This document shows, piece by piece, positions 1 through 17,366 of a DNA stretch of 56,346 bases. The notes beneath the pieces are model-generated. The model searched no databases, had not been told where the DNA came from, and was given only the letters and a program-made list of their open reading frames with translations. Source of the DNA: Porphyra umbilicalis (Eukaryota > Rhodophyta > Bangiophyceae > Bangiales > Bangiaceae); NCBI GenBank assembly GCA_002049455.2, contig KV919171.1, positions 1-56,346 on the forward strand, in the 5' to 3' direction. Within the stretch, counting starts at the first letter, position 1, and every line of letters begins with the position of its first letter. The position numbers and the translations under genes were made by a program.

Positions 1-1840
1 TCAGCCACGCTGCAAAGCAACCCCCCTCGGCAGGGCTGCGGCCGAGGCCGCATACCACGACCCCACAAGCCCTCAAGCTAAGAACATTCCCCGAGCTAAG
101 CTGCGGCCGTTGGCGCTAGTCATTTCCAGCCCAGAACAAAAGAAGCACAAGCTCCCAATGGTTGACTGCGGCCGCAGCCGCGAGCCACCCCCCGCCCAGC
201 CCGCGTGCAAAACACGCCCCCTCAGCTAGGCTCCGGCCGAAGCCACAAGCCACCACCTCCCAATCTCCCAAGCAGGACTGTTCCCGGGCTAGGCTGCGGC
301 TGCAGCAGCAGGCCATCATAGCCTCAGTCCCTTTGCAGAACGTCCCTCCGATGCAAGGCCGCGGCCAAGGCTGCAAGCCACCACCCCCCCAGACCCAAAG
401 CAAAGCAATGTCCCCTGGGCTAGGCTGCGGCCGCGGCCGCAGGCCACCACTCCCCCAGCCCATCTTGCAAAACTACCCCCCTCGGCTAGGCTGCGGCCGA
501 AGCCGCAAGACACCACCCCCTCATCCTCTCACAACACAAGTTCCCAGGGCTGGGCAACGGCGTCAGCCGCCAGCTACCGTCCCCTCAGCCCTCTTGCAAA
601 GCAACCCCCCCCCGCCCAGGCTCTGGCCGAGGCCGCAAGCCATCACCCCACTAGTCCCAAAGCAACGCGATGTCCCCAGAGATACGCTGGGGCCGCAGCC
701 GCAAGCCATCACCCCCCCAGCGCCCATGCGAAACAAACTCCCTCATCGAGGCTGCGGCGGGAGCCGCAATCCACCACCTCCCCATCGTCTCACAACGCAC
801 TATCCCAGGGCTACGGAGCCGTAGCCGCCCGCGACCGCCCCCTCAGCCCCATCGCAAACCTTCCCCCCCCGGCTCGGCTCTGGCCAAGGCCGCAAGCCAT
901 CACCCCCTACCTCAACAACTTTCACACCAAACGTTCGGCACCCATCCATCGCCCAGGGGCTAGGATGCGGACAACCGCCAGCCACCACCGCCGCACCAAG
1001 CGCTACGCACCCATTCACCCCCCCAGGCTAGGTCAAAAGCCAAGACCCCCGCACCAAGCGCTCCGCACCGGTCCACCCCCACAGGCTAGGCTGCGGTATT
1101 CCGCGAGCCAACACACCCGCACCAAGCGTTCGGTACCCATCCACCCCCGCATGCGCGGCCGCGAGACAACACCTTCGCACAAAACGCTCCGCACCCGTCC
1201 ATCCCTCCAAGGCTAGGCTGCAAATCACCCCGAGCCGAAACCCCCACACTAAACGCTACAGCTTTAGCCACCCACCCAATTCTATGCTGCAGAGCACCGC
1301 CAGCCGAAACCCCCGCACCAGACGCTCCGCACCCAGCCACCCCCCCAGGCTGGGCTGCGGTAAATCGCAAGCCAACACCCATGGAGCAAACCCTCCGCTC
1401 CCATCCACCTGCCCAGGCTAAGCTCCAGACAACCGTTAGCCAATACCTCCGCACCAAACGCTCCGCCCCGATCACCCCCCCCAGGCTAGGCTGCGGACAA
1501 CCTCGAGCCAACACACACGCACCACGTGCTCCGCACGCATCCATCTCATGCTGGGATGCGGCCATCGACGAGCTAACACCCATGAGGCAAACGCTCCGTA
1601 CTCATCCACCCGCCCAGGCTAGGCTGCGGAAAATCTCCAAACAGCACTCCGGCACAAAGCGCTCCGCACCCATCCGACCCCGAGGCTGGGCTGCGGAAGA
1701 CCGCAAGCCAACACCACCGCACTAAACGCACCTTACCCAACTACGTCTTCACGCCAGGCTACGGTAATCAGCCAGCGAACACTCATGCACTGAACGCTCC
1801 GGACCCATGCACCCCGCGCGACTGGGCTACGGAAGTGACC
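1..1840. repeat. Degenerate satellite, two related subfamilies
   Basis: The stretch is built from diverged copies of a unit of about 55-65 bases that contains GGCTAGGCTGCGGCC followed by CGCAAGCCA and a C-rich tail. From about 960 the unit changes to one with GCTCCGCACCCATCCACCC before the same GGCTAGGCTGCGG core. Copies differ by many substitutions, so the array is old. Open frames here run in several frames on both strands, as expected of a GC-rich repeat with few stops, and I see no gene. Confidence 0.8.
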
Positions 1841-1884
1841 AAGGCAACACGTCCGCACCAAGCGCTTGACACCCGTCCACCCCA

Positions 1885-2262
1885 ATTGGACGCGCAAGGC
1901 ATCGTTGTCGGTGCCGTCGGCAGTCCCTACCTAGGACGCGTACGGCGCCATTCCTGGCGCAGTCGGCAGTCCAAACCAACACAAAGCGGAAACGCACAGG
2001 GCACCGCTGTTGGTGCCGTTGGCTTTCCCCCCCGTGGGACGCGCAGGGCGCTGTCCTCAGCGCCGTGGGCAGTCCGTACCAACACTGAATGGAGACGCGC
2101 AGGGCACTGTTGCCGGTGCCGTCGGCAGTCCCCCCCTTGGGCGCGCAGGGCGCCGTTCCCGGCGCCGTCGCGGTCCTCACCACCACGAAACGGGGACGCG
2201 CAGGGCACCGTTGCCGATGCGGTCGGCAGTTCCCCCCCTTGGACGCGCAGGGCGCGCAAATA
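1885..2262. repeat. Third satellite array with a GACGCGCAGGGCACCG core
   Basis: Successive copies carry GACGCGCAGGGCACCG followed by TTGCCGGTGCCGTCGGCAG and then a stretch of C. Spacing alternates around 50-60 bases, suggesting a composite unit. It abuts the preceding satellite but shares no obvious core with it. Open frames across it on both strands look incidental. Confidence 0.7.
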
Positions 2263-2299
2263 TAGCATCGGTGTTCCCCTGGCAATGTCCCCATCCAAG

Positions 2300-4285
2300 C
2301 CCCATCAGTTCCAACCGGACACCTGATTCGATGGGCTTCGATGCCCACCGAGCACCCCCCCGATGGGGTCTCTAACGAAAGCTGACGACCTGGCCTGCTC
2401 ACGGCCGTCCACTGAGTTTGGCTGGCTCGTGAAAACAGCGCCCGCTGCCCTGTCAGAGACGTATGCCCTGTCCGCTTCTTCAAAAACCTGAGCGTCATTG
2501 CCACAAAGGGATGGGCCGCGCCTCCACGGCGATTTGAGAAGAGTGACTGGCCACCTCTTTTAGCTGCGTCGTCAGCGGCTCACCGACCAGCCAAACAAAT
2601 ATACCGATTCCGCTGAGACTGTCACGCACAGAAACTAGGCTGAAAGACGTGGCAGGTCGCCCGCGTTCCGCCGCCCCACCGCAAAGCACCAGACGATGGG
2701 CAATTAGTATTTCAAATCGAATGACATCGATAAAATATGTGTCGAAGAGCTGATTCGATTGAGTATAACTGTTTTACCGCCAAATGTGGATCACTCGATT
2801 GCAGGATACGTATATTCTGTATGCGGCCTTGTCCAGGTACAGTCTTTCTCCATTCCTGTAGCTTCTTTTATTATGCACCCCTGCATAGAAATGAGACATC
2901 ATTGCACTGGGAGGAAGGGCGATTCGGCCATCTTCTGCACGAAAAAACAGGGCTACTTGAGGATTCGTCAGGCGACGAAAAGGGTGGACAGCCTTTGAGG
3001 AAGACTGTATCTCGAATCTGCACGGTCGGACGGCCCTGCGGCACTCGCCATGAGCGTCCCAGATATCGATAGAATGCTTATCTTCATATGACTAAAATAT
3101 ATATATTCCACCTGGGTCAGGCCATCTGATTGCCGAGTCGCAATGCCTCTGTCGGGGGATCTGGCCCCTCTCCTAACAATTGTCGGGTGCCGCCGCCGCG
3201 CCACGGCAGGTACCGCTTTGCTCGTTCCCCCGGCCTCTCTGGGTGGCGACGGCCGGCTCTCTCATACCGGGTTTGTCCCGTCATTCGAGCCATCGAGCCT
3301 CACGCTGCCGTGAGCCTTCTCCCCCGCCGGCGGCTGCCCTTTCTTCTGGGTTCCTGTGCCAGGCCGTCAGGCGCCGCCCGTTCGCAAGACGCCGCGGCCG
3401 CTGTTGCCCGTTGCTCTCTCCCCTCGGTGGCTCCTCGCTGCGCCGGCGGCGCGGCTGGTGCGATGAGGGGCGTCCGCCGGCCGCCGATGCCCGGCGTCGG
3501 CGGATTTTCAATGCCCGCCGTCTCGTTGCAAGAGGACGACTGCCCGTTTCCGGTACGAGTGACGCAGCTGGACACCGTTGGTGCACTCCTCATGCGTGTC
3601 GGACTGCGTCCCGACGAGCTGGACGGCTCTTCTTCTCGACCGCTGCTTGTGAATTGTGCACGCACGCGGCCTGGGTGTGCGGGACCAAGCCAAGGAAAGA
3701 ACGCGGCTTAACGCAGCCAAGTGGTCCGTGGGCCCCCGGGAGGTGGGATGTGAAATTGGCGGCGGCGGCTCTGCCCCCGCCCACCACCCCCACCTGTGAT
3801 TGCTGCAGGCGGCGGCGGCCGCTGATGCGGCGGCGGCGGCCGTCGACGCCGCTTCGGCGTCAGCCGTCGACGCTACCCAAGCAGCTGGCGGGCGCTTTCG
3901 GGAGGGGGCTGATTGGCCGGGATCACTACGACGGCGGGCTGGTGGCGGAGGGCGACACGTCGGCCTCGACAGGAGCCGAGGGCCGGAAGCGATGGCTCCA
4001 GAGGTGGGGGCCGTGCGGTGGGGAGAGTGAAGTGTCTGAGGTGGCGGCAGTGTCATTGTCGCCGTCGGAGCCAGGGGATGCTGGAACGGGGTGTGAGGGA
4101 GTCGGTAGTGTTGACAGGCAGTCAGTTTGTATTCTCTTGGGTGGTGGGGGGGGCGATGCGGTGCACCACCGCCCGCCCCCATTGTAAAGCTGTTGAGGAT
4201 GGCGGCGATGGGAGAGTCCCGCGATTGTTGTCTTACGAAGAGGGAGTCTTTTTGCGTACAGATAACAGTGCAAGTTTATCTCGTT
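2300..4285. other. No convincing gene; lower-GC then GC-rich spacer
   Basis: From 2300 to about 3130 the sequence is of mixed composition with no convincing coding frame. From 3130 to 4190 it becomes GC-rich with overlapping open frames on both strands. The longest plus-strand frame (3180-4187) is rich in Arg, Cys, Pro and Ser with no recognisable domain, so I do not call it. Confidence 0.5.
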
Positions 4286-4288
4286 CTA

Positions 4289-6398
4289 TCACGTCTCCTC
4301 ATTCGTCACCGGGGCTTCCTTCCTTTCAGCAGCAAATGCTAACATCTCGGCTTCTCGCTCATGTGGTGGGAAAGGGGGACGCGGCAGGCCAGCTCGGTCG
4401 GCGTCTAGCGATGGTACCCGTGACTCAGCCTCCGCCAGCCACTCCTCCCAGGTAATGGCAACAGACCCAGAAATGCGCGTGACATGCTTGTAGCGCCAAA
4501 AGTGGTCGCCCATCATGACCGCGTGCAGCTCGACGACGTACTGCAGGGCGTCGGCATCCGTCATCACGCCCGGCTTTGTCATTGCCAAGATGTGTAGCTG
4601 GTCATACGTCCGCATCTCGCGACCCTTGTTGCCTCTGCGCGCCCACCGCCAGGACGACACCATCAGCCCGATGGAGGCCTCGGACATGCCCTTGAGGATG
4701 TTAGATGGAATACGCATGAAGACGTCATGGACGGAAGGCCACTTCTTCGTCTCCGGGTTGAAGTACGTCAGCATGATGCCGACCGCCGTCATCATGCGGA
4801 CCATCGTCCGGTCGTGCCGCCCCTTGCTGTCCAAGCTGCCAGCTTCGGCAGCTCCAGCTGCACGGCCCATTTCGGCCTTTGACGCGCCCACCGACTTGCC
4901 GCTTTTCTTGTGCGTCTGGGCGGGGTCTGCGCGGGCGGAACCGGGACGGAGCACTCTCATGAGCGCTGTCAGTGGCTTTTAAGACCGCCGAAACTGCCTT
5001 ACCACCACCAGGGCGCGAGCGTGCAGCCGATGTGTCGCCGCCGCCCTCCTCCGAGCCGTCGTATAAGAATTCCTCACCAGGAAAAATGGTTCCGTCTTGT
5101 CCGTCGGCTTCATTGATGGGACCGCCATCGAAAGAGGGCAGCAGGTCAGGGTTTGCACCGGGCATTGCGCGCGCGTCTTTTAGGTCAGACGCACCAAGAC
5201 CGGCGATTGCGCTGGCAAAGCCTGTCAGAGATGGCGACGGGGCGTCGTCGTGTTGCAACGTGTCGTTCACAGCCGCAGACGCAGCCTCCAGGGCGCAAGC
5301 AACAGCGTCCTGATCTCTTCTAGAAGGTGAAGGCGGGTTGCCGCAAACGTAGGCTCCGCCCGTGTTTCGGGCAGCGCAATTGCCCCACGCGTATGGCACT
5401 ACAGCGGGCGGCAGCGTGGCGACCACATGGACAGTTCCACCAGATCCGGCCAGCGCCACGTCCGGCGGCGACGCGTGCGGTGAAGAGGTAGAGTCCGCCG
5501 TCTCGTTGCCGAGCGTCGTATTGACGCCCCCCACGACACGGCCGGACCCGGCAGGCGCCGTGAGCGGCTGCAACGCGCGAGCTGGCGAAACGGCCGCCGT
5601 AGTGTTGGTGCCGTGCGGTGAGGTGCCTCCGCCGTCGACGCGGCCGGTCCCCGCAGGCCCCGCGGACGGCGGCAGCGCGTGCAGCAGCGCGGTGGGCGCC
5701 GTTGTGTTGTTTCCGCTGCCGGCGGGGCTGCCATCAGCAGCAGACGGCGGCAGCGCGCGCGGCGGCGCGGTGGGCGCCGTGGTGTTGTTGCCGCTCCCGG
5801 TGGGGCTGCCATCAGCAGCGGACGGCGGCAGCGCGCGCGGCGGCGCGGTGGGCGCCGTGGTGTTGTTTCCGCTCCCGGCGGGGCTGCCATCAGCAGCGGA
5901 CGGCGGCAGCGCGCGCGGCGGCACGGTGGGCGCCGTGGTGTTGATGCCTCTCCCGGCGGGGCTGCCATCAGCACCGGACGGCGGCAGCGCGCGCGGCGGC
6001 GCGGTGGGCGCCGTGGTGTTGTTGCTGCTCCCGGCGGGGCTGCCATCAGCAGTTCCATTCGTAGCTTTGCCTGCGTCGCTGGCGCTATCCTCGTCGGAGC
6101 AGCCGTCGGCAGTACCGGCGTCGCTACCAAACACCTCGCTCAGCTCCTCGCTGGTAGCCTTAGTAGCCTTCCCGCGAGCGCGCTTGCGACCTTGCCTCGA
6201 AGTTGGCTGGTTGGCTTTGAACTGCAGGTTGCGCTTCCGAGTTGCTTGCGCCTTCTTTGTAGCATCCACCCGTGAAGCTCTCAGCTCCATCCGTGTCATC
6301 TTGGTCTTCTTGCTCTTTGGTGCGGCGCTGTCGGACGCCGCCCCTGCGGCACCTCCAGAAGATCGGCCGGCAGGCATCTTTTGACAAGCAACGTACAC
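4289..6398 (-). CDS. Unknown protein with 26-residue tandem repeats, probably spliced
   Basis: I do not recognise this protein. The first part begins at 6398, has a Lys/Arg-rich stretch at about residues 21-73, an acidic patch near 84-102, then five tandem copies of a 26-residue unit containing NTTAPTAPPRALPPS (about residues 110-240). The second part (4965-4289) is in a different frame and is less biased, with features such as WPSVHD and FWRYKH that look like a folded domain. Removing a 37-nt segment at 5002-4966, which starts GTAAGG and ends CTGACAG, joins the frames exactly into about 690 codons. Such a short intron is unusual, so a one-base frameshift is the alternative. The repeats and lysine-rich start would suit a mobile-element protein, but that is inference. 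Confidence 0.6.
5680..6071 (-). repeat. 78-bp coding minisatellite, five units
   Basis: Five head-to-tail 78-bp units encode the 26-residue repeat of the surrounding gene. The central units are almost identical and the outer ones more diverged, as expected of unequal exchange. The period is a multiple of three, so copy-number change preserves the frame. Confidence 0.8.
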
Positions 6399-6399
6399 A

Positions 6400-7550
6400 A
6401 AGAAACGAGAAGAGGATAGATCCCAGCAGATATACAGTGGTTAGAACAGACGAACAAGCGCGCACTTGTAAGCACGAAAATCCTCCAACGGAAAACATGT
6501 GTTGCCATAGCGTCCATGGTCACAGAATAACAGCACAAACACTGTAATAGACGCGCAAAAACAACATTGCGTGCACACGCGGGAAAAAACATCACGCAGC
6601 AAGATGTCAAACAGATGGCCTCATCGTGTGGAAAGCACGTACCATGAAGAAGGGATGCAGCACGAAGCACCTTGCGGCAAACCACAATCAGATTTATGAC
6701 TCAGACCAAATGCGACTCTGTTGGAGCACCCCAACGGAGAAGAGCTGCGCACAGGCCAGTAAACAGCGCGTCAGGTACTCGCGTCACGAGGTGCTCCAAC
6801 AGCGTGCCCTTCGAAAGGGCGGCAACGACGCAACACCCGAGCGAGCAGAGCACCAAACGTGCCCTGCAATCCGGCATCTAATTGTAATGGCAAATACTCA
6901 GGCTGAGACCGACACGATGTGTATACACTGTCTCCGAAACCGACACGATGTGTATACACTTTCAGTATGGTTTCAAATGAGAGAAGCTCATTGAACCGTT
7001 GATGAAGTTTCTCATCTCTATGTCTAATTGTAGATCAAATTGTGAAACAGTACTAGAAAGGTCAATCGCAGCAATGCACTTCCGAAATTCACCCACATGC
7101 TGGCCTCGTCGCCGGCCCACAAACTGGGCCAGCCTCCCATGGCATCGTTTCTGCTTCACAGGCCCAAGCTGGAGCACACGCCAGTCTCCCGGGTCTGAAA
7201 AAAAAGAGAAACAGACAGATGAACATGGGACTACATACGCCACACGTGAACGCGACCACTAACAAGTGCCTAAGATCTGGAGTCCGACCGCGAGGCAAGT
7301 GCCGCACAATACTTGTGCACTTCGTTGTAAGGGAACGACGCACCGCAACTCTCACGGGCAGCTCGCTCCCGACGGAGAACAACACGCAAAGCGCTCCAGC
7401 CACCATATCTTGTGGCCGCCTTAGCGATTGCCCCGCGCTTGGACAGCATAGAAGAACACCCCCGCCCAAACAATTGCTTGTTTGATGCCATAGCAACACA
7501 TGTGGTCGACCCGCATACGAGCGTCTTGAGCGCCGGGGAGCCGTTGAGCC
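6400..7550. other. Intergenic, no gene seen; short direct repeat inside
   Basis: Mixed composition with no convincing coding frame. The string ACCGACACGATGTGTATACA occurs at 6908 and again at 6939. Each copy holds the 10-bp palindrome GTGTATACAC. Confidence 0.55.
6908..6960. repeat. Two 22-bp direct repeats with palindromic core
   Basis: Two identical 22-bp copies 31 bases apart, each containing GTGTATACAC. The layout resembles a double binding site, but no neighbouring promoter is evident, so a regulatory role is only a possibility. Confidence 0.5.
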
Positions 7551-7554
7551 CACT

Positions 7555-8244
7555 CTACCAGGAGTCCTGGACGGCATACAGCATCTTGTCCCAGTCCTTC
7601 GGTAGCGGAGGCAGCGTGAACGGCTTCACTTGAATCTTGACTGGCGCTCGAATTGGCAGTGAGCTTCCAGCGGATGGCTTGCGGCAATGGTAACAAAGGG
7701 TGCCCTGGTCGGTTGTAGGAGGTGATGCCGGCGTGTTTTCGACGCTCGACAGCGGGAGCGAACAGATGCCGTTCTGCTTGTCAGAGGGCTGGTCGGACGG
7801 GTTTCCATAGACTACTGCGGCTAAGACCTTGGCGGACATAGTCATCTGCGCTGGAAGCCCACGACGTGCCGCTCCACGGCGATGGTTGACCTCAAATTTC
7901 CCGATCTTGTTCTTGATTGCGTCACAAAGTGCCTTGGCGACGCGAGTGGGGGGCATCTGGGCTCCGTTTGCGGCGAGCGCTCTTGGGAAGCGCAGGTGAC
8001 CGTCGAGGTTTTCGGGCAGCTGCCTTGGGACGAAGGCGCGGTGCAAGGGGTTGATAGCTGCTGTCAGCGGAAGATGCGGGCGCGCAGATGCCACGTCAGA
8101 ACGACGTTCAGAACTAAGCGGCGGGTCATTCCGGCCACCTTGTCTCGTTGAAGAGGATGCCGGGTCTGACGCAGCACACGATGAGGCTTCACCTTGCATC
8201 ATTGCTCGTTGGCCAAGCTGGAGGAGCTTCCAGATGGGAGGCAC
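7555..8244 (-). CDS. Unknown 229-residue protein divergent from the recombinase
   Basis: Unrecognised. The frame begins at 8244 with MPPIWKLLQLGQ and has mixed, non-repetitive composition, unlike the shadow frames around it. The middle part (around AKALCDAIKNKIGKFEVNHR) is predicted by eye to be helical. The end has a CYHC pair that might bind metal. It is transcribed away from the tyrosine recombinase gene, with about 400 bases between the starts, so the two may share a promoter region and belong to one element. The coding call rests on composition and continuity only. Confidence 0.5.
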   Translation of the reverse strand: MPPIWKLLQLGQRAMMQGEASSCAASDPASSSTRQGGRNDPPLSSERRSDVASARPHLPLTAAINPLHRAFVPRQLPENLDGHLRFPRALAANGAQMPPTRVAKALCDAIKNKIGKFEVNHRRGAARRGLPAQMTMSAKVLAAVVYGNPSDQPSDKQNGICSLPLSSVENTPASPPTTDQGTLCYHCRKPSAGSSLPIRAPVKIQVKPFTLPPLPKDWDKMLYAVQDSW

Positions 8245-8409
8245 GTAGGTTGGGGACTGTGTTGCATCCTCAACGACAGCTGGACCCTCGTCTCAGAAAC
8301 GCTTATGTCGTTAAAAAGCACGACGGTGCGCGGCGGCTGGCGATACTGGCCAATCACACCAAGAGGAGCGCTCTGCCTGAGTCAGACAGCAAGGAAATCC
8401 CAATGTACG

Positions 8410-8423
8410 ATTGTACGTACAAT
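8410..8423. promoter_or_regulatory. 14-bp perfect palindrome between divergent genes
   Basis: ATTGTACGTACAAT is its own reverse complement and lies between the start at 8244 on the minus strand and the start at 8644 on the plus strand. It could be a binding site for an element-encoded protein; this is inference from position and symmetry. Confidence 0.35.
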
Positions 8424-8643
8424 TGTTTACCGATTCTCATACTTGTTGGGAATCTTCAATGCGTTGGGCAATGCCTCTGCCAGCCGTATACACGGCTATT
8501 AGTTGGGCGGTGAGGCTGTGTTTCGCCCCTTTGCCTTGCTCGCAGTGCTGTCGCCGTCCCAGTATTCGCTCCGTGCAGCCATCATTCGCTCGTGCGCGGA
8601 CACTCGCCGCAGCGGCCTGTGCGGGCTGCCGTGAACGGCAACC

Positions 8644-10155
8644 ATGGCATCCTCCACCAATTCGTCGACAGCGGTGCCGACGAGTTCGGATCTTCCCCAT
8701 TTCGCGATCGGTCGCCTTGCCAACACGCGTTACAACCGCACCAGTGCGGCTGGCCGCGATGCTTGGCTTGAGCACGTGCCGGCATCATCATCGTACGATG
8801 CCGTGGCACTTGCCAAAAAGACCGAGGAGGCAATGCGATCCGACAGCAGCGCTCAAGTTCACAAGGCGATGCGCGCCGACTACGTCGCGTTTTGTGCTCG
8901 CGGAGGTGTGGACCCTTTTGTTGTGACGTCAACCACCGCTGCGCATGTCGCAAACTTCTACAAGTACCGGACGAAGAACTTCCCGCTCGGACTGTCGATG
9001 GCCAAGCATGTCTCCGCTCAGATGACGCTGTTCTTCAAGGAGCTGGGCTGCTCGGGACAGTGGTCAACCGGCAAGGTGGGCATGCGGGACACGTATGTCA
9101 ATGGCAACCCAAACTACAGCGATGACGTCGCCAAGTGTAAGCGCGCCCATAAGGCCGCGCTTGCAGCGCAAGGCCGTGTCCCTGTTCCAATCGACGCGTT
9201 AGAGTACGGGCATATGTGTGTTTACTACGATCACTACATCAAGGACGAAGACGATGTTGCCCCTGCAAGGCTGTACCAGTTTGCGGCCATGATGGTCGCG
9301 ACGTTCAACCTGATGCGGTTTGATGAGGTTACAAAGATCCAGTACGTTGGGTGTCTTGTGCCAGTTTTTTTTTGGCTCTTTTTCATCGACGCACGTACGG
9401 TCGGGGTCGTCCGACTTCGAGCACTGGTGTGTTGTCATGATATCTCTAACTCGCAAGTGACACAAGCGTGGCGGACTACCACTACGCTGTCCCTGGCATG
9501 TGATGCCCACTTGAATGCTGGTATCTTGTACTCTGTTCATCTCAGGCGCGAGAATGTTTTGCTCACCGAGGACGTGTTTGGGAACCCCATGTTTCGAATC
9601 AACATCTTGCAGGGTACCAAGAACTCCCTGACTAGTCATCGTTACTATTTGGAAGGCGGCCCGGGCCTCGCTGGTGATCCTCGGGTTGACCCTGTCCTCG
9701 CCCTTGCCATGTACCTGCTGAAGCGCGGGGAGCTAGCGGGTCCCCTATTTGTGAATTTCAAGAATGTCGGTCGTGACGCGTACGAGATGGACCCGCGCAC
9801 GCCCTTGAAGGATGGAGCGTTTCTCAACGATTTGCGTGATGCCTTCGATGAAGCAGGGGTGGACTCTTACCGGTTTCTCGGTACGCACTCCTTCAAGCGC
9901 GGCGGCGTGCAGCTCTACCGTCTTCTTGGCGTTCCTGACCAAGAGATCAAGGAGCGCGGTCACTGGCAGACGTTCTCGGCGTATTTTGCGTATGTGCAAG
10001 CAAGCAATCGATTGGAGAAGCGATACACGTACACTACGGCGCAAGCGGCCTTGGCTGATGTAATTTCACAAGGAGGAGAGGTGACGGCTGGGGTGCTAGA
10101 AGAGCTGGGGATTGAGGTAGGGCCGCTGCCAAAGCAGGTCGCTCGGTCGAGCTGA
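8644..10155 (+). CDS. Tyrosine recombinase (Crypton/DIRS/phage-integrase fold)
   Basis: Predicted to cut and rejoin DNA through a 3'-phosphotyrosyl link. The start has good context (CAACCATGG). A 204-nt intron (9342-9545, GTACGT...CTCAG) interrupts the frame without shifting it; splicing gives 435 residues and reads MRFDEVTKIQRENVLL across the junction. Catalytic features are R225 (NLMRFDE), K258 in GTKNS, H347 in THSFKRGGVQL, H372 in ERGHW, and a tyrosine at 379 or 382 (AYFAYV). The box reads HSFKRGG, like HSLRRGG of DIRS and Crypton enzymes, but with Lys where the second Arg is usual. The N-terminal 170 residues fit a core-binding domain. No extra C-terminal DNA-binding domain is visible. 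It is followed on the same strand by a RecQ helicase gene. I am confident of the superfamily but not of the subgroup. Confidence 0.87.
   Translation: MASSTNSSTAVPTSSDLPHFAIGRLANTRYNRTSAAGRDAWLEHVPASSSYDAVALAKKTEEAMRSDSSAQVHKAMRADYVAFCARGGVDPFVVTSTTAAHVANFYKYRTKNFPLGLSMAKHVSAQMTLFFKELGCSGQWSTGKVGMRDTYVNGNPNYSDDVAKCKRAHKAALAAQGRVPVPIDALEYGHMCVYYDHYIKDEDDVAPARLYQFAAMMVATFNLMRFDEVTKIQYVGCLVPVFFWLFFIDARTVGVVRLRALVCCHDISNSQVTQAWRTTTTLSLACDAHLNAGILYSVHLRRENVLLTEDVFGNPMFRINILQGTKNSLTSHRYYLEGGPGLAGDPRVDPVLALAMYLLKRGELAGPLFVNFKNVGRDAYEMDPRTPLKDGAFLNDLRDAFDEAGVDSYRFLGTHSFKRGGVQLYRLLGVPDQEIKERGHWQTFSAYFAYVQASNRLEKRYTYTTAQAALADVISQGGEVTAGVLEELGIEVGPLPKQVARSS
9342..9545 (+). other. In-frame intron of the recombinase gene
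   Basis: Donor GTACGTTGGG, acceptor TTCATCTCAG, 204 nt and so a multiple of three. The residues it would encode are Cys/Phe/Trp/Val-rich and interrupt the conserved region just after the catalytic arginine, which argues that it is removed. Confidence 0.75.
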
Positions 10156-10159
10156 TCGG

Positions 10160-10606
10160 GGGCCACCCGTGTACCATGCCGTTTTTTCCCGCGTGTTCCC
10201 GGTCGTAAAGCAATCTTTGACGTACTTCCACAGCAAAACGTGTGTCTGTAGGATGTGCTGGGTCACTACACGCTCTAGGGGTCAATAGGACATGTAGCGT
10301 GAACGGGAAGCGAATTTGGTGGGCATGGACAACAGCTCTGAGCACGACAAGAGGGCAAAACAGTACGTCCCACTACATCTGTCATCGTATGCAGTAGATT
10401 TAGCATGCTAAGTATTGGATGTGCAGATCTCAGTGAACCATATTGCTACCTCAAATTGACCTGACAGTACTGAAGCGAAACCTCAAATTGTGCATTAAGT
10501 TCACACTGTGGTTTTTAATGCATGTGCAATTTGATGGTCGAAAGTTGTGCTGAGTTGTGCGCAAGCAAGGCGGTTCGAAGTCGCCGAGGCTCCCATTTAC
10601 GATGAT
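10160..10606. other. Spacer between recombinase and helicase genes
   Basis: About 450 bases, AT-richer than the flanking genes in its second half. CCTCAAATTG occurs twice near 10450-10490. No convincing frame; it probably holds the recombinase 3' end and the helicase promoter. Confidence 0.5.
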
Positions 10607-13011
10607 ATGGCCGCAGCGCCTGTCGTCAAGCGCCCCACTGGAAGAAGGGACGCTGTGGGGCTGTCATCTTCTTTGGTTGAGTGCACGACTGCCAGAAGCT
10701 GCGGCAATATGGACAAGGCGGCAGTACGGGCGGCTGCCTATGGCCTGTTGCGCAGCCGTTTTGAGCACGAGGACTTCCGGCAAGGCCAACTCGAGGCCAT
10801 TGTCTCCGTCGTGGACAAGAACAATCCCAATGTCGGCGTCTTGTCAGTTATGGGCACTGGACAAGGCAAGGTAAGACATTCGCCACAAGCGGGTCCTGGT
10901 GGCATCTTTTTTTTTCGTTGGAAGGGCGTGTTCCCGCGATTGGATTCCCTTACTGATGTGCTTTTGCTGCTCCGTTCAATGAGGTCTTGTTACTTGTGGT
11001 TTGCAGACCTTTGTAGTCGGTATTGCAGCGTTGCTGCTGCACAGTCGTAGGCGGTGGCTGACCGTGCTGCTGACGCCACTGAACAGCATCGGTCGGCAGC
11101 ACGTCAAGACTTTCCAGGACGCTGGACTGGACTGCGCCGGACTCTTCGGTTCGTCTACTGAGCTTGAGCGCACGCGGATTCATGCAGCAGTGACCTCGCG
11201 ACAGCTAGTCATCCTTGTTGCGTCCCCTGAGGCCATGGTCAATAACCCTGGGCTGCTAGGGGTGATCAAGACCATGGGCATTTGCCTCCTTGCCTTCGAC
11301 GAGGCGCACCTCTTTGACTCGTGGGCTCGCTGGCGCCCGGACCTTTCCCGGGCTGCGTCGCGCTTCGGTAGCTGCCGCCGGCTGGCCCTATTCGCGACGG
11401 TGCCGCTTGCTCAAGTCTCTGCTCTTCAGGACGCTCTCCACATCAACGAACCTCTGGTCTTTCATCGCGGTCCGTTCCTGCGGCGCAATCTGGTCATTCG
11501 TGTCATTGACCGTAACGCTGCGTACGCTTTTGGGCGCTCCAATCGCGTGGAGCAGTGCCGCGCTGACCTTGAGCACGCCCAGCGTGTTGCTTATGCCTTT
11601 CAGCTGGCCGTTTGCTGCCGGGCTGCCGGTGGCAACATGGTTGTTTTCACGTCGTCCCGGTCTGAAGCGGCGCGTGTTGATGCGGAGCTCCGATGCGCCG
11701 CGGAGGCTCTTGCGCGCCACGGCAGTTCGCGCGATGAGCCTCTTGACGTACTTGTGTACCATGCCGGTCTGGAAGATCTGGCGGCGACGGAGCATCACTT
11801 CGCCACGAACACGGGGATCGTGGTGGTAGCCACCATTGCGTTTGGAATGGGCGTGCATTGTGCCCATGTGCGAGCGGTGCTTCACTTTGTACGCACGGCC
11901 GACGCTCCTTGGTGTGGTTGTCGCACCTGTTATCATGTGTGGCTCTTGTTCGTGCACGCCTTCAGGCTTGCTATGTTCTGACCACTAACGACTCCTTCGT
12001 AGTTCTGTTTGTCAATTCTACTTCTCACTTGGTACACTGTGTGATTGCTGGGTTGGATTCTTTTATCCGTTTGACGACTGATTGCGCCTGTTGCGGCCTG
12101 GCCCCTGCGGCCTGGCTGCTGTTTGATCCGCTCGGGCGAAACAGGGAGGTGCGAGCTCCGTTTCAGAGTTTTCTCAACAGTTTGGTAGAGCTGGCCGTGA
12201 TGGCCGTCAAGCTGTTTGCGTATGTTTCTTCAACCCTTGCGACGCGGGTGGGGTCCGTCATGTCATCAAAGAGAACAAGATGACCGAGAGTGAGTCTTCA
12301 ACTCTGTTCAACAGAATCATCGAACACACGGCCGCGACTGGCAAAACATCGTTCATGCACGTCGCCGACTTCCGCGCTGCAGGCGTCGGACCGAAGCAAG
12401 TGAGCCGTGTCCTGGCCTGTCTACAGCGGCTGGGAGCGACAAGGGCTGGGCCCAATGTGCCTTGCCGAATCGCTGTGCGGCCGGACAAGAACCTCATGGC
12501 CGGATTTGCTGATCTCTCTGAAGATGCGCAGGCGTTGTGGATGAAGCACGTCATGCCGCAGCTACGGCGCCGTGGGGCAAGCAGGCCGCAGATTGCCAGG
12601 TTTGACGTTCGCGCTGTTTGTCGGGATTCTCCCTTCCTGGATCAATGTTCGGCGAGACCTTCGGCTGTCCATGGCGCTGTCAACGAGATGTGCCACGAAG
12701 GTGTTTTGGTCGTCGACAAGAGCGAGGACTATAGCGATGTCGTCCCGCTTGAGGTCCTGGCCAACATCGAGCAAGGCCGCTGGCCGAGGCGTCTTGTTGA
12801 CATCTTGCAGGAGGACATCGCAGCGGATCTTGATGTTCTGAGGGACGTGCAGTCCCTCCTGCAGTCGCGTGGCTGCATCAACCGTCAGCTAATCTCTCGG
12901 TTTGGTGCAGAGTCGGAGGTCGGCCTGTCTGTGCCAAACTGCTTGTGCAGTGGCTGTGTCCCTGACGGGCCCTATCTGCGTGCTCGTTGTCCTATTCTTC
13001 CTGAATTGTAG
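10607..13011 (+). CDS. RecQ-family DNA helicase, three exons
   Basis: ATP-driven 3'-5' unwinding enzyme of superfamily 2. Exons at 10607-10870, 11007-11916 and 12167-13011 join in phase to 672 residues. Introns are 136 nt (GTAAGA...TTGCAG) and 250 nt (GTTGTC...TTTCAG). Visible motifs are motif 0 (FRQGQLEAI, about 57-65), Walker A GTGQGKT (83-89) formed only by splicing exons 1 and 2, DEAH (186-189), motif V (AFGMGVHCAHVRAVLHF), and motif VI QQFGRAGRDG (395-404) at the start of exon 3. The region after motif VI contains NPCDAGG and then winged-helix-like sequence; a CLCSGC pair lies near the end. Starts at 10607 or 10709 are both possible. Its position behind the recombinase suggests a shared mobile-element role, but a host helicase caught by chance is not excluded. 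Confidence 0.85.
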
Positions 13012-14985
13012 ATGAGTTTGCTCTTTCTGTTCCTTGATGCGTTTGGCATGTATCCTCGGTACTCCCCTGGCTTGTTTCTGTTAGCAAATGTCCTTTTTCT
13101 GCATCGCACTTGTGTTGCCACTTGTCCCTTACATCTTGACGTAGTGCCATTCCTTGTGGGCCACTGCGATCGCGGCCACTTGAGCTGGATGCGCGGAGTT
13201 GGCGTACTACACGTCGCACGCCGGCCGGCAATCAAGCCCATATCTGATGCGTGATTGCGATTTGTATTGTGATTTGAAGGTGTGATTAGTGTTCGAGTTC
13301 TCATGGGATGGAATTCACATGTACAAAAGAGGCCCATATCTGATTTCTCGATAGAACGTCGGTATTCGTGGACCGTAGTCCATGTGGAGAGCCGCGAGCT
13401 TCTTGGGAGAAGATGCGTCTGGCAGCAGACGCAAGGGGGCCCCGGCACTCTCCAGCGTGACGGTCGTCACCACATGTTCTCAGAACGGGTGACGCCAGCG
13501 GGGTAATCGTCTGGTGTCGGCAGCCGCCGTCACCGGCGGCGGGGCCGCGTCCACGGCTGGCACCTTCCTGTTCCGGCTCTTCGGACGAGCAGGCGGTTGG
13601 CGGCGCGCAGGAAGGCGATGTTGCGTGAGGCAGGAAGGCGGCGGAGGCGGCATGGAGGGGCGTGGGGGTGGTAGGATGAAACGGCGGTGCCTCGACGCGC
13701 ATGGCCATCCCACCGCTGGTGCTGTCGGGCACAGGGAAGGTTCCCGCCCACATTTTGGCGCCGTGTCGTCATGGCATGCTGCTTTACGCTCCGCCTCCCC
13801 TACGATTGCCCCTCGCTCCAAGATCGGCTGTCGACTGGCAGTAGGGCGACTTTTGGCGGCTCCGACGTCGCCGCCGTTGTGTGGCCACCGCAATCACGGC
13901 GCCGCGCCGGCCGCGTCAGAGTGGGGAAATACGAGACATCTCGGAAGGCCTGCCAGTGGGCGGTGGCTGTCGTCGGTCGCTCCGTGGCAGCCGCGACGGT
14001 CCCGCATTTATGCCCAATGAGCAGCACGCACGTTATACACGCGGCTGTCGCCCACGGCACGCGCCGGCCGATGCCTGTCCGCGCACGACGGAGCGGGTGG
14101 TGGGGGATGATAGGGTGGCGGGCGGCGTGGCCGCCGCCGTCGCTTGTCAGGTATGTCTCTGCGCACGGCTGTGATCGGTGCTTCTATTGAACTGGAACGC
14201 AGATCGTTTTCGCTATTCACCCATGCTCGCAAGCACGCGAGCAACAGCATGTGGGAGCCAGCTCCGCGCCGACTGACACCGCCCACCAACACGCTGGCGG
14301 AGGTTGCGGTGCTCACGCCTTCTCTACTGCGGGCACGACCCCCCCCCCGCCATGCAAGCGACATCAGCGTCACCCCCGCTAAACGAAGCACCACCGCCCC
14401 ACGCCATACCCGAGGGCGAATGCGACGAGGGCAAAAGACTTCGAGGATCGCGTGGCTCGTGGCCGATATCGGCAGGCACGCTGGGGCTGTGTCGCCACAA
14501 CCGCTCGTACGTCTCGAAGTCGCAACCACGCCGAGAAGCACACTCCGACGAGCACAATCGACCCCTTCTGCGAACGCATGTTGTCTTGGCAGAAGGGTTT
14601 GCTGGCCGAGCGCATTTAATTCAAGTCACCACCTCATTCCTTGACATCAACCCCGATCGTCGCTTAGCCTTCGCGCTGTTAGGGCAGTCGTCCGAGATTA
14701 GCGAGCATCTCGATACGTACGAGTGTACGATCATCTGCGATCGATGTGCGATCATCAGCTTTCGCCTCGATTTGCCGTCAGGGCGTTGATAAGCATCGCA
14801 GCGATCGGCCAGATTGCTTGGTTCCAGGCACCCCCTCTGGGAAGCACGTTCCAGAGGCTGTAATGCGATTTGGGTTTCCCAGACAGCTATATCCCCAAGT
14901 TAAGGCTGCTCTTCTGGGTCTGAGCATTACATGGCAGGGATGAAAAGACAAGCTGCAACGTGCTAAAATATGAGTGGTCGATATG
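13012..14985. other. Spacer, no recognised gene
   Basis: 13012-13340 carries a direct repeat of GCCCATATCTGAT (near 13237 and 13336), which could mark the element boundary. 13430-14200 is GC-rich with overlapping open frames on both strands, none with a recognisable domain. 14200-14985 is mixed. No RNA gene was seen. Confidence 0.5.
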
Positions 14986-14990
14986 AATTA

Positions 14991-15111
14991 CCCCTCTCAC
15001 AGAGGTCGTAGAGGCCGAAACAGGGGACGTCCCCTGTTTCGGCCTCTACGACCCCTGTGAGGGGGGTGACACCCGTCTCAATTTCGGCCTGAGAAGGCTC
15101 TGTGAGAGGGG
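14991..15111. repeat. Foldback element with 50-bp perfect palindrome
   Basis: Bases 15004-15053 form a perfect palindrome; each arm includes GTCGTAGAGGCCGAAACAGG and the centre is GGGGACGTCCCC. Around it, CCCCTCTCACAGAG (14991-15004) recurs inverted at 15098-15111. I see no matching target duplication at the outer ends. It could be a small foldback transposon or a regulatory cruciform. Confidence 0.85.
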
Positions 15112-16336
15112 TGCCTGACGATCCAGGATGACCCGTGGGCGGTGACTTGATCCGACGGATCACGTCTTGCCCGCGCGTTGCTGCGCCCGTCGTCCGCAGC
15201 CGATTTTGTATGCGCCCGGGTGATCGCTGTGCCGTTGCCGTCTTCCAGTGGTGGGGCTCAATATGGCAAAGGAAAACAAAGACCGGACGTACGCTGTGTC
15301 GTACGGTAGTTGCACGGGTCAGTGTAGGGTCAGTGCAGGGGGGGGGGCGTGGGGGGGAGGGGGGACGCGCGTACGTCCGAAACACACGGCGGGAAACAAC
15401 GCTCATCCTCCCCCCCTATCCGCAAATATGCTCCTTTGGTCACCCCTGTGTCCTCCCCGCGGATACTCTTTCGTTCTTTTTCTCTTTTGCGAATACAAGG
15501 CAACCATAGCAAACATTGTCGTCGCGTTCCGAGGCACAGAGTGGGCATACTACTGCATCAAGACTGCCCCGCATCTTCATATGCAATGACGGTCGGGGGG
15601 GTGTGCCAGCGTTATGTAATGCTTCCAGCAGGTCCCCGTGCATTCGTCTAGGCAAGTGGGGAAAGAAGAGACAGAATCTGCAGTCCTTCTTTTTTTCCGA
15701 ACCACTTCCCGAGGGACACTGGCCATCTGTATGTAGATGTTGCTCCCTCGGCTACCTGTTTGCTGGTCAAAGAGCGTGCTCAGGAGTCGACGGTTCGTGC
15801 ACAAGGGTGCACAGCGCAAGAAAATGAGCCACAGAGCGCTCGGAGAGCATTACCGCAGTTGGATTTGTGGATGTCTTGTCCTTGTGTGGTGTGCATCTCG
15901 TCCGTGCCTGTCGGAAGCAGGTCTGATGCCACTTCGGTGCATGTCAACTTTCGTGAAAGGAGCTTGAAACAAGAACACCAGTAACGTCCCCTCGGGGCCA
16001 ATGAGAGCGGATGACCTCGTCCACGTTGTAATCTTCAAGAAACTTTGGATGTAGAATCTGACACTCTCCCTTGTGACCAATGAGCAGTCGTATTTGAGGG
16101 AGGAGCCAATCCAGGGCCGCAGTTCGCTTGAAAACCCAGAAGAGCAGGAACACTGGGTCTTAACTAGGCGTGGGCAGGCGGCCGTTGGGTGCGGTCGTCC
16201 GCCGCCTCTATTTAGATTTCTGCCCCTTCTTACCGTTGACTTGGTCCGAAGCAGGCAGAAAGGTGGCTCAGGGAGCTGCAATCGGCTGCTGACATGTCAG
16301 CAGCGCAGCGCTGTCGACAGCTGGGTCAGTCTCTAG
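15112..16336. other. No gene seen
   Basis: GC-rich and mixed stretches with only short incidental frames. Homopolymers occur around 15340-15365. No feature beyond the neighbouring repeats is supportable. Confidence 0.45.
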
Positions 16337-17192
16337 CAGGGTTGTAAGTTCATGTTGAATCTACAGATGGTTCTATGAATCAGGTTTATTTCAAGAAGCG
16401 AACCAAACCAAACGACAAACGACTTGGTTGTATTTATGATTAATTGCCCGGGCAGACAGGAGCTTTCGTTGACCCCTTCAAATTGATCAGCCAGGTGGTT
16501 CGGCGCTGTGCTGCCGCTCTGACTGCCTCGTTGCCATACCCCCTGCAGGTCAGTCGCGCTGAGAGTTCTGCTCCCAGACCCTCCTTCATGTCAACTGTTG
16601 CCAATCGGCTGTGTAGCACCCTAGGCGCTGAGTACGTACATCGATTCATCTGCTGTCAACGTGTGCGTGAATCATAGCCTTTTTTGGCTGGAGGATGGAT
16701 GAGTCGTGGTTGCACCCAGGATTGCGTAGAGTGCAGCAAGCTGCTTCTCGGACAACGGAGCATCCACTCGCCCTCAATGCCCCGTCTACACGTATCGGTG
16801 TTTGGTCCCTTCTGTTTGGTCCCCCCGACTCCGTTACTGCGCGGAGGCCCAGGCGGTTGTCAACGTCGCCGCCCCGGCGTCTGCTCGTACCAGTCGTTTG
16901 GATTGTGTCGCGGTGGTGGGGCAGGAAATCAGGGCTCTGTCTCCGGGACTGCAGTAGGCCTGCTATGCACACGCTACATCGGCTTGGCGACTCAAGCTCG
17001 ATGGAGCTCGAGTGAGACAACCCGACTTCGTCAAGCACAATCTCAATTATATTAAACGTGGCACACTAAGTATCACGTGGAACAAGTACGCCCTTTGACA
17101 TGTTGCGTTCAACCTGAACGCTCCAGCGTTCAAGTGAATCAGGTTGAATTCCGTTCATGTTTGGCAAACCAAACCAAACGCTGACAACCCTG
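16337..17192. mobile_element. hAT-like non-autonomous DNA transposon
   Basis: The left end begins CAGGGTTGT and the right end finishes ACAACCCTG, a 9-bp perfect terminal inverted repeat that starts CAGGG as in many hAT elements. The flanking 8 bases are GTCTCTAG on the left (16329-16336) and GTCTCTAC on the right (17193-17200), a 7-of-8 match of the length hAT transposases generate. The 856-bp body has no transposase frame. Subterminal sequence repeats TTCAACCTGA and its inverse at 17106-17150, plus AACCAAACCAAACG near both ends. This fits a MITE-like derivative mobilised in trans. Confidence 0.7.
17106..17150. repeat. Subterminal inverted repeat of the hAT-like element
   Basis: TTCAACCTGA and TCAGGTTGAA flank an inner inverted pair, GAACGCT and AGCGTTC. 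Subterminal palindromic motifs are typical transposase-binding regions. Confidence 0.6.
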
Positions 17193-17366
17193 GTCTCTAC
17201 TAGGCACCCGGTCAGTCATAGGGCACCCTCCCGGTACACGGGGGGGCGGCGGCGCCGCCCGCCTTGTGTACGCACGCGGAACCGACCGTAGGGGGTCGAG
17301 CCGCGCCCAGTGCGCTTGACTGTTGTAATTGTGGACGTAAACGCTACCGTACTCGGGGGATCCGCC

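Follow-up and report, generated by a model that had tools for sequence, protein, structure and literature searches.

A large, probably recombinase-mobilised element carrying a RecQ helicase gene in the red alga Porphyra umbilicalis

Introduction

In the genome of the red alga Porphyra umbilicalis (assembly GCA_002049455.2) a gene for a tyrosine recombinase (YR) is closely followed by a gene for a RecQ-family helicase. The window analysed here consists of positions 1 to 56,346 of contig KV919171.1 (C411; other contigs are designated likewise), and the genome searched comprised 84 Mb in 665 contigs. On the basis of the DNA letters alone it had been proposed that these two genes, together with a diverging gene, constitute a compact mobile module at 7555-13011 (the original prediction). 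The question raised by this locus is whether the gene pair is indeed mobile and, if so, what is the unit that moves. The data indicate that the window very probably holds the right-hand part of a DNA transposon of ~40 kb that moves by means of its own tyrosine recombinase. The best reading is that of a Crypton-like YR transposon of Starship size with RecQ as its conserved partner.

Extent and copies of the element

Both genes are real, with one intron in YR and two in RecQ, and RecQ follows YR on the same strand after a gap of 451 bases. The outer limits proposed for the module did not hold. The unit homologous to other loci runs from the contig start to 14902, which rules out a compact 5-kb element; the YR and RecQ genes, lying 2-6 kb from the right terminus, form one end of a ~40-kb element (Table 1). 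The YR DNA recurs at 98-99% identity in three other contigs, and several copies of the element are 97-99% identical across long stretches while their flanks differ. Contig C411 starts inside the element, within minisatellites, and does not reach the left flank of the copy in the window.

The complete copy in C77 (124456-164581) measures 40.1 kb including an AGTTA at each end, and the copy in C1, extending from 329116 down to about 284662, measures 44.5 kb. They are interior to contigs of 273 kb and 971 kb, respectively. When both are walked leftward, mostly 93-98% identity is kept until the end is reached. The window portion corresponds to bases 19396-40126 of the C77 copy, relative to which it misses ~5.2 kb, mostly GC-rich repeat DNA (2113-2255 region), and ~0.6 kb near 4937-5662. 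A copy of 10.4 kb in C21 has both ends and no YR match. The copy at C110:573-8665 has a 1-kb deletion within RecQ, and its left side is swapped for other sequence inside the 78-bp minisatellite. Where copies have flanks in common (C429/C355; two in C160), they may represent alleles or a tandem arrangement; the insertion counts are therefore maxima for the number of independent events.

Minisatellites with units of 66-68 and 102 bp occupy window positions 166-2255 and are matched in the C77 and C1 copies, where this region holds about 4-5 kb of extra GC-rich DNA in a large inverted repeat layout.

Table 1 Features of the element and its target in the window
Feature	Position	Strand	Remarks
Right-hand part of giant element	1..14902	+	Collinear chain, mean identity 97.6% to C77 copy
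Element gene remnant	4725..6440	-	914-aa open frame in C77 copy
78-bp minisatellite, 5 copies	5662..6052		Inside the 4725-6440 gene; varies between copies
Diverging open reading frame beside YR	7555..8292	-	245-aa open frame here, 340 aa in C77 copy
YR gene	8644-10155	+	Exons 8644-9341, 9546-10155; intron 9342-9545
RecQ-family helicase	10607-13011	+	Exons 10607-10870, 11007-11888, 12145-13011; 670 aa
Conserved right-terminal region ...GGCACCCCCTCTGGGAA...CTATCCCCA	14680..14897	+	Recognisable in divergent subfamilies
AGTTA at right junction	14898..14902	+	5-bp repeat, also at left end of other copies
Target: 1.28-kb repeat, 14-bp terminal inverted repeat CACGCCTAGTTAAG	14898..16172	+	Element inside its left terminus

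Element ends

The left ends of the copies begin at one identical base, with the sequence AGTTATCCC..., and C77:15052, C32:228133 and C43:179482 break at the same point as C77:124456. With the first 466 bases as query, ten loci including the query were found to start at exactly this base and an eleventh one base further in. A 24-base end pattern allowing up to 3 mismatches gave 10 matches, 6 of them exact, and its reversed control gave none.

The right end, ...CTATCCCCA-AGTTA, is common to the window and the C77, C110 and C1 copies. Beyond this AGTTA the C110 copy diverges within a few bases and the C1 copy within about 30, while the window and C77 stay alike up to 16172 and diverge there, because both are inserted in the same 1.28-kb repeat. 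Eight more right ends were read on seven contigs, and a second subfamily (C383, C429, C75, C355 and C177) contributed five right ends of similar sequence, ...CTCTAACCCCCAG. A sixth piece of that subfamily (C75:113500-116500) diverged earlier and holds no end; no left end was found for this subfamily. The junction sequence GNTA is present in all 17 right ends (12 places of the first set and the five of the second subfamily, some possibly allelic). AGTTA forms a 5-bp direct repeat at both ends of the C77, C1 and C21 copies. A terminal inverted repeat was not detected: no 8-mer is common in inverse orientation to the 150-bp ends of the C77 copy.

For seven left ends (C32:228133, C43:179482, C77:15052, C126:38822, C166:134574, C29:227736 and C135:119068) no right end was located. 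Among the matches listed, YR is absent from C32, C43, C126, C135 and C166, and from the vicinity of the ends on C29 and at C77:15052; these loci appear to be truncated or non-autonomous relatives.

Insertion into another transposon

In both C77 and C1 the left flank of the element reads ...CACGCCT; on the right the flanking sequence begins AGTTA-AGGCTGCTCTTCTGGG in C77 and AGTTA-AGCCTGCTCTTCTGGG in C1. When rejoined, the two flanks yield in either case the terminus of an unrelated 1.28-kb transposon, both ends of which consist of CACGCCTAGTTAAG. In each of the two large copies that are fully bounded, the element sits at the AGTTA within another transposon's terminal inverted repeat. Ten element-free 1.28-kb repeats were sampled from at least 17 further long matches to this repeat; CACGCCTAGTTAAG was exact in seven of them, present with at most one mismatch in nine and missing in one. 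Among 11 left flanks of the element, CACGCCT or ACGCCC was found at the end of six, the other five being unrelated. In C177 the copy of the second subfamily lies in the same kind of terminus, at the other end of the repeat. The 1.28-kb repeat at 14898-16172 was also considered as a part of the element; this was rejected, as the repeat occurs alone elsewhere and is the target. It contains a 95% palindrome of 78 bp at 14990-15067.

These ends and targets bear on the explanation that a host RecQ gene and a stray recombinase were copied together in a segmental or subtelomeric duplication. Subtelomeric RecQ repeats are described for fungi (PMC4522978), and the window contig begins within minisatellites, as such a duplication might. 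On the other hand, copies between many unrelated flanks have ends that agree to the exact base, those in C77 and C1 are interior to large contigs, and the flanks rejoin to a transposon terminus. This explanation was rejected on the exact common ends and is considered highly improbable. The mobile role assigned to the gene pair in the original prediction is well supported by the near-identical copies, their exact ends between different flanks, and the occupied and unoccupied targets.

A second repeat of about 856 bp follows at 16337-17193 in the window and recurs at 94-97% identity in at least 21 further places. It starts near CAGGGTTGT and ends near ACAACCCTG, and is perhaps a small DNA transposon.

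The recombinase

Removal of a probable in-frame GT-AG intron (9342-9545) gives a predicted protein of 435 amino acids. Arg225 (9316-9318), His347 (9886-9888), His372 (9961-9963) and Tyr382 (9991-9993) are present. The original claim of intact key motifs has to be qualified with regard to box II of the YR, which reads H-S-F-K-R (K350/R351), with Lys in the usual place of Arg and Arg one residue later. This form of box II is common to most of the aligned relatives.

Neither the spliced YR nor any of six relatives had a match to a Pfam family at cut-off or at E 0.1; GCR1_C and DUF3504 were not detected by Pfam in these seven proteins, nor was PF11917 (DUF3435) matched in the YR family. Solved structures searched with a profile of the YR family likewise yielded no match. 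When two relatives were scanned against phage families, one of them showed integrase matches, which were weak (E 0.011 and 0.057). For an AlphaFold model of a 390-amino acid relative from Pyropia yezoensis, confident in its N-terminal half only, the top Foldseek matches were Cre and other YRs, although with low TM-scores (0.20-0.24 for Cre, by model length). A second model covered the catalytic domain and was of poor quality (mean pLDDT 46). The assignment of the catalytic fold rests on sequence motifs, because the models of the catalytic half are of low confidence; judged by these motifs and the fold match of the relative, the gene encodes a tyrosine recombinase.

A second set of recombinases, 22-40% identical, is found on C15, C78, C40 (245k), C91, C37, C585, C41 (173k) and other contigs, mostly with no RecQ match nearby among the matches listed. 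These may perhaps belong to DIRS-like or other Crypton-like elements. At least two weaker YR loci have RecQ nearby, on C281 (about 3 kb) and C7 (about 15 kb).

The RecQ helicase and its association with the recombinase

The single RecQ frame requires removal of introns 10871-11006 and 11889-12144, and splicing brings back the Walker A motif GTGQGKT. RecQ-type sequence was judged by TIGRFAM profiles (TIGR01389, E 1.4e-47; TIGR00614, E 3.8e-47; both below the curated cut-offs), and helicase domains by Pfam cut-offs, which both DEAD and Helicase_C exceeded. The best match among solved structures was the ATP-dependent DNA helicase 1oyw (E 8.3e-30), which we take to be E. coli RecQ.

Whole-genome protein searches showed that RecQ lies within 2 kb of YR in 20 of 27 YR loci and within 20 kb in 22, in which it is always downstream and on the same strand. 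These loci were grouped from rows of at least about 44% identity (one row of 42% falls in a counted locus); the weaker rows (22-40%), which for the most part seem to represent other YR families, were excluded. The searches scored 97 of 100 YR and 66 of 104 RecQ candidates, and the locus counts are therefore minima. Since the pair recurs at 20 of 27 loci, the genes are not found apart as single copies between conserved host neighbours, and the co-occurrence asked for in the original prediction is borne out. A database protein, P0013, joins a YR end to a RecQ-like stretch (Helicase_C, E 0.029, below cut-off), which suggests that the two genes are ordered alike in another sample.

Pairwise identities of YR and RecQ were compared over seven loci with complete copies of both genes (C123 excluded), of which three and two are near-identical, so that they represent four lineages. 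The correlation was high (r 0.992; 2 of 5040 permutations as high), and the two genes thus appear to have travelled together. Between groups, identity is about 38% for RecQ and about 60% for YR. Comparison of second-subfamily copies with C84 gave dN/dS values of 0.04-0.06 for YR and 0.09-0.16 for RecQ, with dS at or near saturation. Near-identical copies, which show few changes, gave 0.13 to 1.83; for the C110 copy only the surviving RecQ pieces were used. This pattern is that of a transposon lineage, with selection while moving and decay after landing.

It has to be considered that the YR mobilises the element and that RecQ, outside the transposition machinery, serves as cargo or acts in anti-silencing or repair. 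The faster divergence of RecQ is what might be expected of an accessory gene, but the close position of RecQ behind YR in most loci and its purifying selection between subfamilies argue against it. This possibility is judged unlikely, though it is the most serious of the alternatives.

Other genes of the element

Apart from YR and RecQ the element has 34 open frames of at least 150 amino acids, many of them antisense overlaps, and 15 of these were scanned by Pfam, some in their window form. The only domain at cut-off was that of a C48 (Ulp1-like) protease at C77:141124-143145 (PF02902, E 3e-5). The C-terminal part of the 914-amino acid C77 protein shares a 106-amino acid domain with this protease frame (31% identity). 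The gene predicted to diverge from the recombinase exists as an open frame (7555-8244, minus strand), although it is a shortened form of the C77 frame, and has no Pfam match. The C48 gene was found at 21 loci, 15 of them within 40 kb of a YR; among the remaining six, C32 and C166 bear a left end of the element. Excluded from this count were rows at 23-30% identity (other C48 families), short N-terminal pieces and rows matching the shared domain only. Both this protease and RecQ thus recur as components of the element.

No reverse transcriptase or RNase H was detected in the 15 of 34 frames that were scanned, and the DIRS identity included in the original label is accordingly disfavoured. The same frames showed no DDE domain and no capsid, packaging or polymerase domain, which bears on two further explanations. 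In the first, the element is a DDE-type (Kolobok-/Academ-like) transposon with RecQ, in which the YR is a passenger and AGTTA a 5-bp target duplication. RecQ is known in Academ and KolobokH, and a red algal Kolobok-1_CCri encodes one (PMC3627910, PMC9587614). Against this stand the missing DDE domain, the lack of inverted 8-mers at the ends, and the YR itself, which is normally found next to RecQ and evolves under purifying selection; a DDE origin is regarded as very doubtful. In the second, the element is an integrated virus-like (Polinton-like) element and not a transposon. Polinton-like viruses of algae have been reported to carry a YR, but neither viral domains in the scanned frames nor inverted ends were seen, and this appears the least probable of all.

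Proposed mechanism

By analogy with known YRs, the two ends of the element would synapse and the YR would recombine the two AGTTA copies, releasing a circle with the predicted junction ...CTATCCCCA-AGTTA-TCCCTGCCAGGAAACG.... The circle would then be joined by the YR to a new AGTTA (GNTA) site. Alternatively, AGTTA might represent a target duplication of 5 bp. That neither inverted ends nor, in the frames scanned, a DDE domain were detected favours recombination at a common core. Coupling of circle excision to replication or repair by the helicase, as suggested in the original prediction, is not supported by the data. The role of RecQ is conjectural. Most likely it would unwind DNA or act on the junction during recombination (strand exchange, branch migration); alternatively, it would help to repair the gap left by excision of a long, GC-rich and repeat-laden stretch of 40 kb.

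Comparison with known systems

No title or abstract on a YR-RecQ transposon was found in a literature search that had most subscription journals and preprints outside its coverage. In searches combining tyrosine recombinase with red alga, Pyropia or Rhodophyta only PMC3627910 was found, the accessible text of which describes no such element.

According to Kojima and Jurka (2011, PMC3212892), Cryptons encode a YR, lack terminal inverted repeats, have terminal direct repeats of 4-6 bp (5-6 bp in CryptonS) and have been proposed to use a circular intermediate; oomycete CryptonF sometimes encodes a C48/Ulp1 peptidase, and the groups that they describe belong to animals, fungi, oomycetes and a diatom. 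The Porphyra element resembles them in its YR, absence of terminal inverted repeats, short direct repeats, C48 gene and non-autonomous derivatives. It differs in its size of about 40 kb, several further open frames, recurrent RecQ, H-S-F-K-R box II and lack of Pfam similarity. By these shared features the element would work like a Crypton.

Most RecQ-bearing DDE families have terminal inverted repeats. Academ, KolobokH and Kolobok-1_CCri also place a RecQ inside a eukaryotic transposon, one of them red algal, but the present element has a YR instead of a DDE transposase and no inverted ends were seen in its C77 copy (PMC3627910, PMC9587614). Fungal subtelomeric RecQ repeats are telomere-linked and multicopy (PMC4522978); multicopy RecQ and nearby repeats are found here as well, in contrast to the interior position and exact ends of the C77 and C1 copies.

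Giant gene-rich YR elements are best documented in fungi, as Starships. These are led at the 5' end by a DUF3435 (PF11917) captain, and some families insert into other transposons (PMC12134995). The 40.1- and 44.5-kb copies fit the description of a large YR element with accessory genes, and giant size, YR, short direct repeats and insertion into other transposons are all shared with Starships. Unlike a captain, the Porphyra YR has no DUF3435 match; it starts about 6 kb inside the right end, is transcribed outward and is followed by RecQ. The chances are about even that the element represents a separate giant-YR lineage in Bangiales, a counterpart of Starships of independent origin from Crypton-like ancestors, with a core machinery of a YR-RecQ pair and a C48 protease and with the terminal inverted repeats of a different transposon family as its target. 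If true, this unrelated red algal set would show that giant YR elements evolve repeatedly. The YR, RecQ and C48 genes could be mistaken for host genes in seaweed genome annotation. With defined ends, a defined target and a helicase partner, the element would make the use of RecQ to a YR transposon directly testable.

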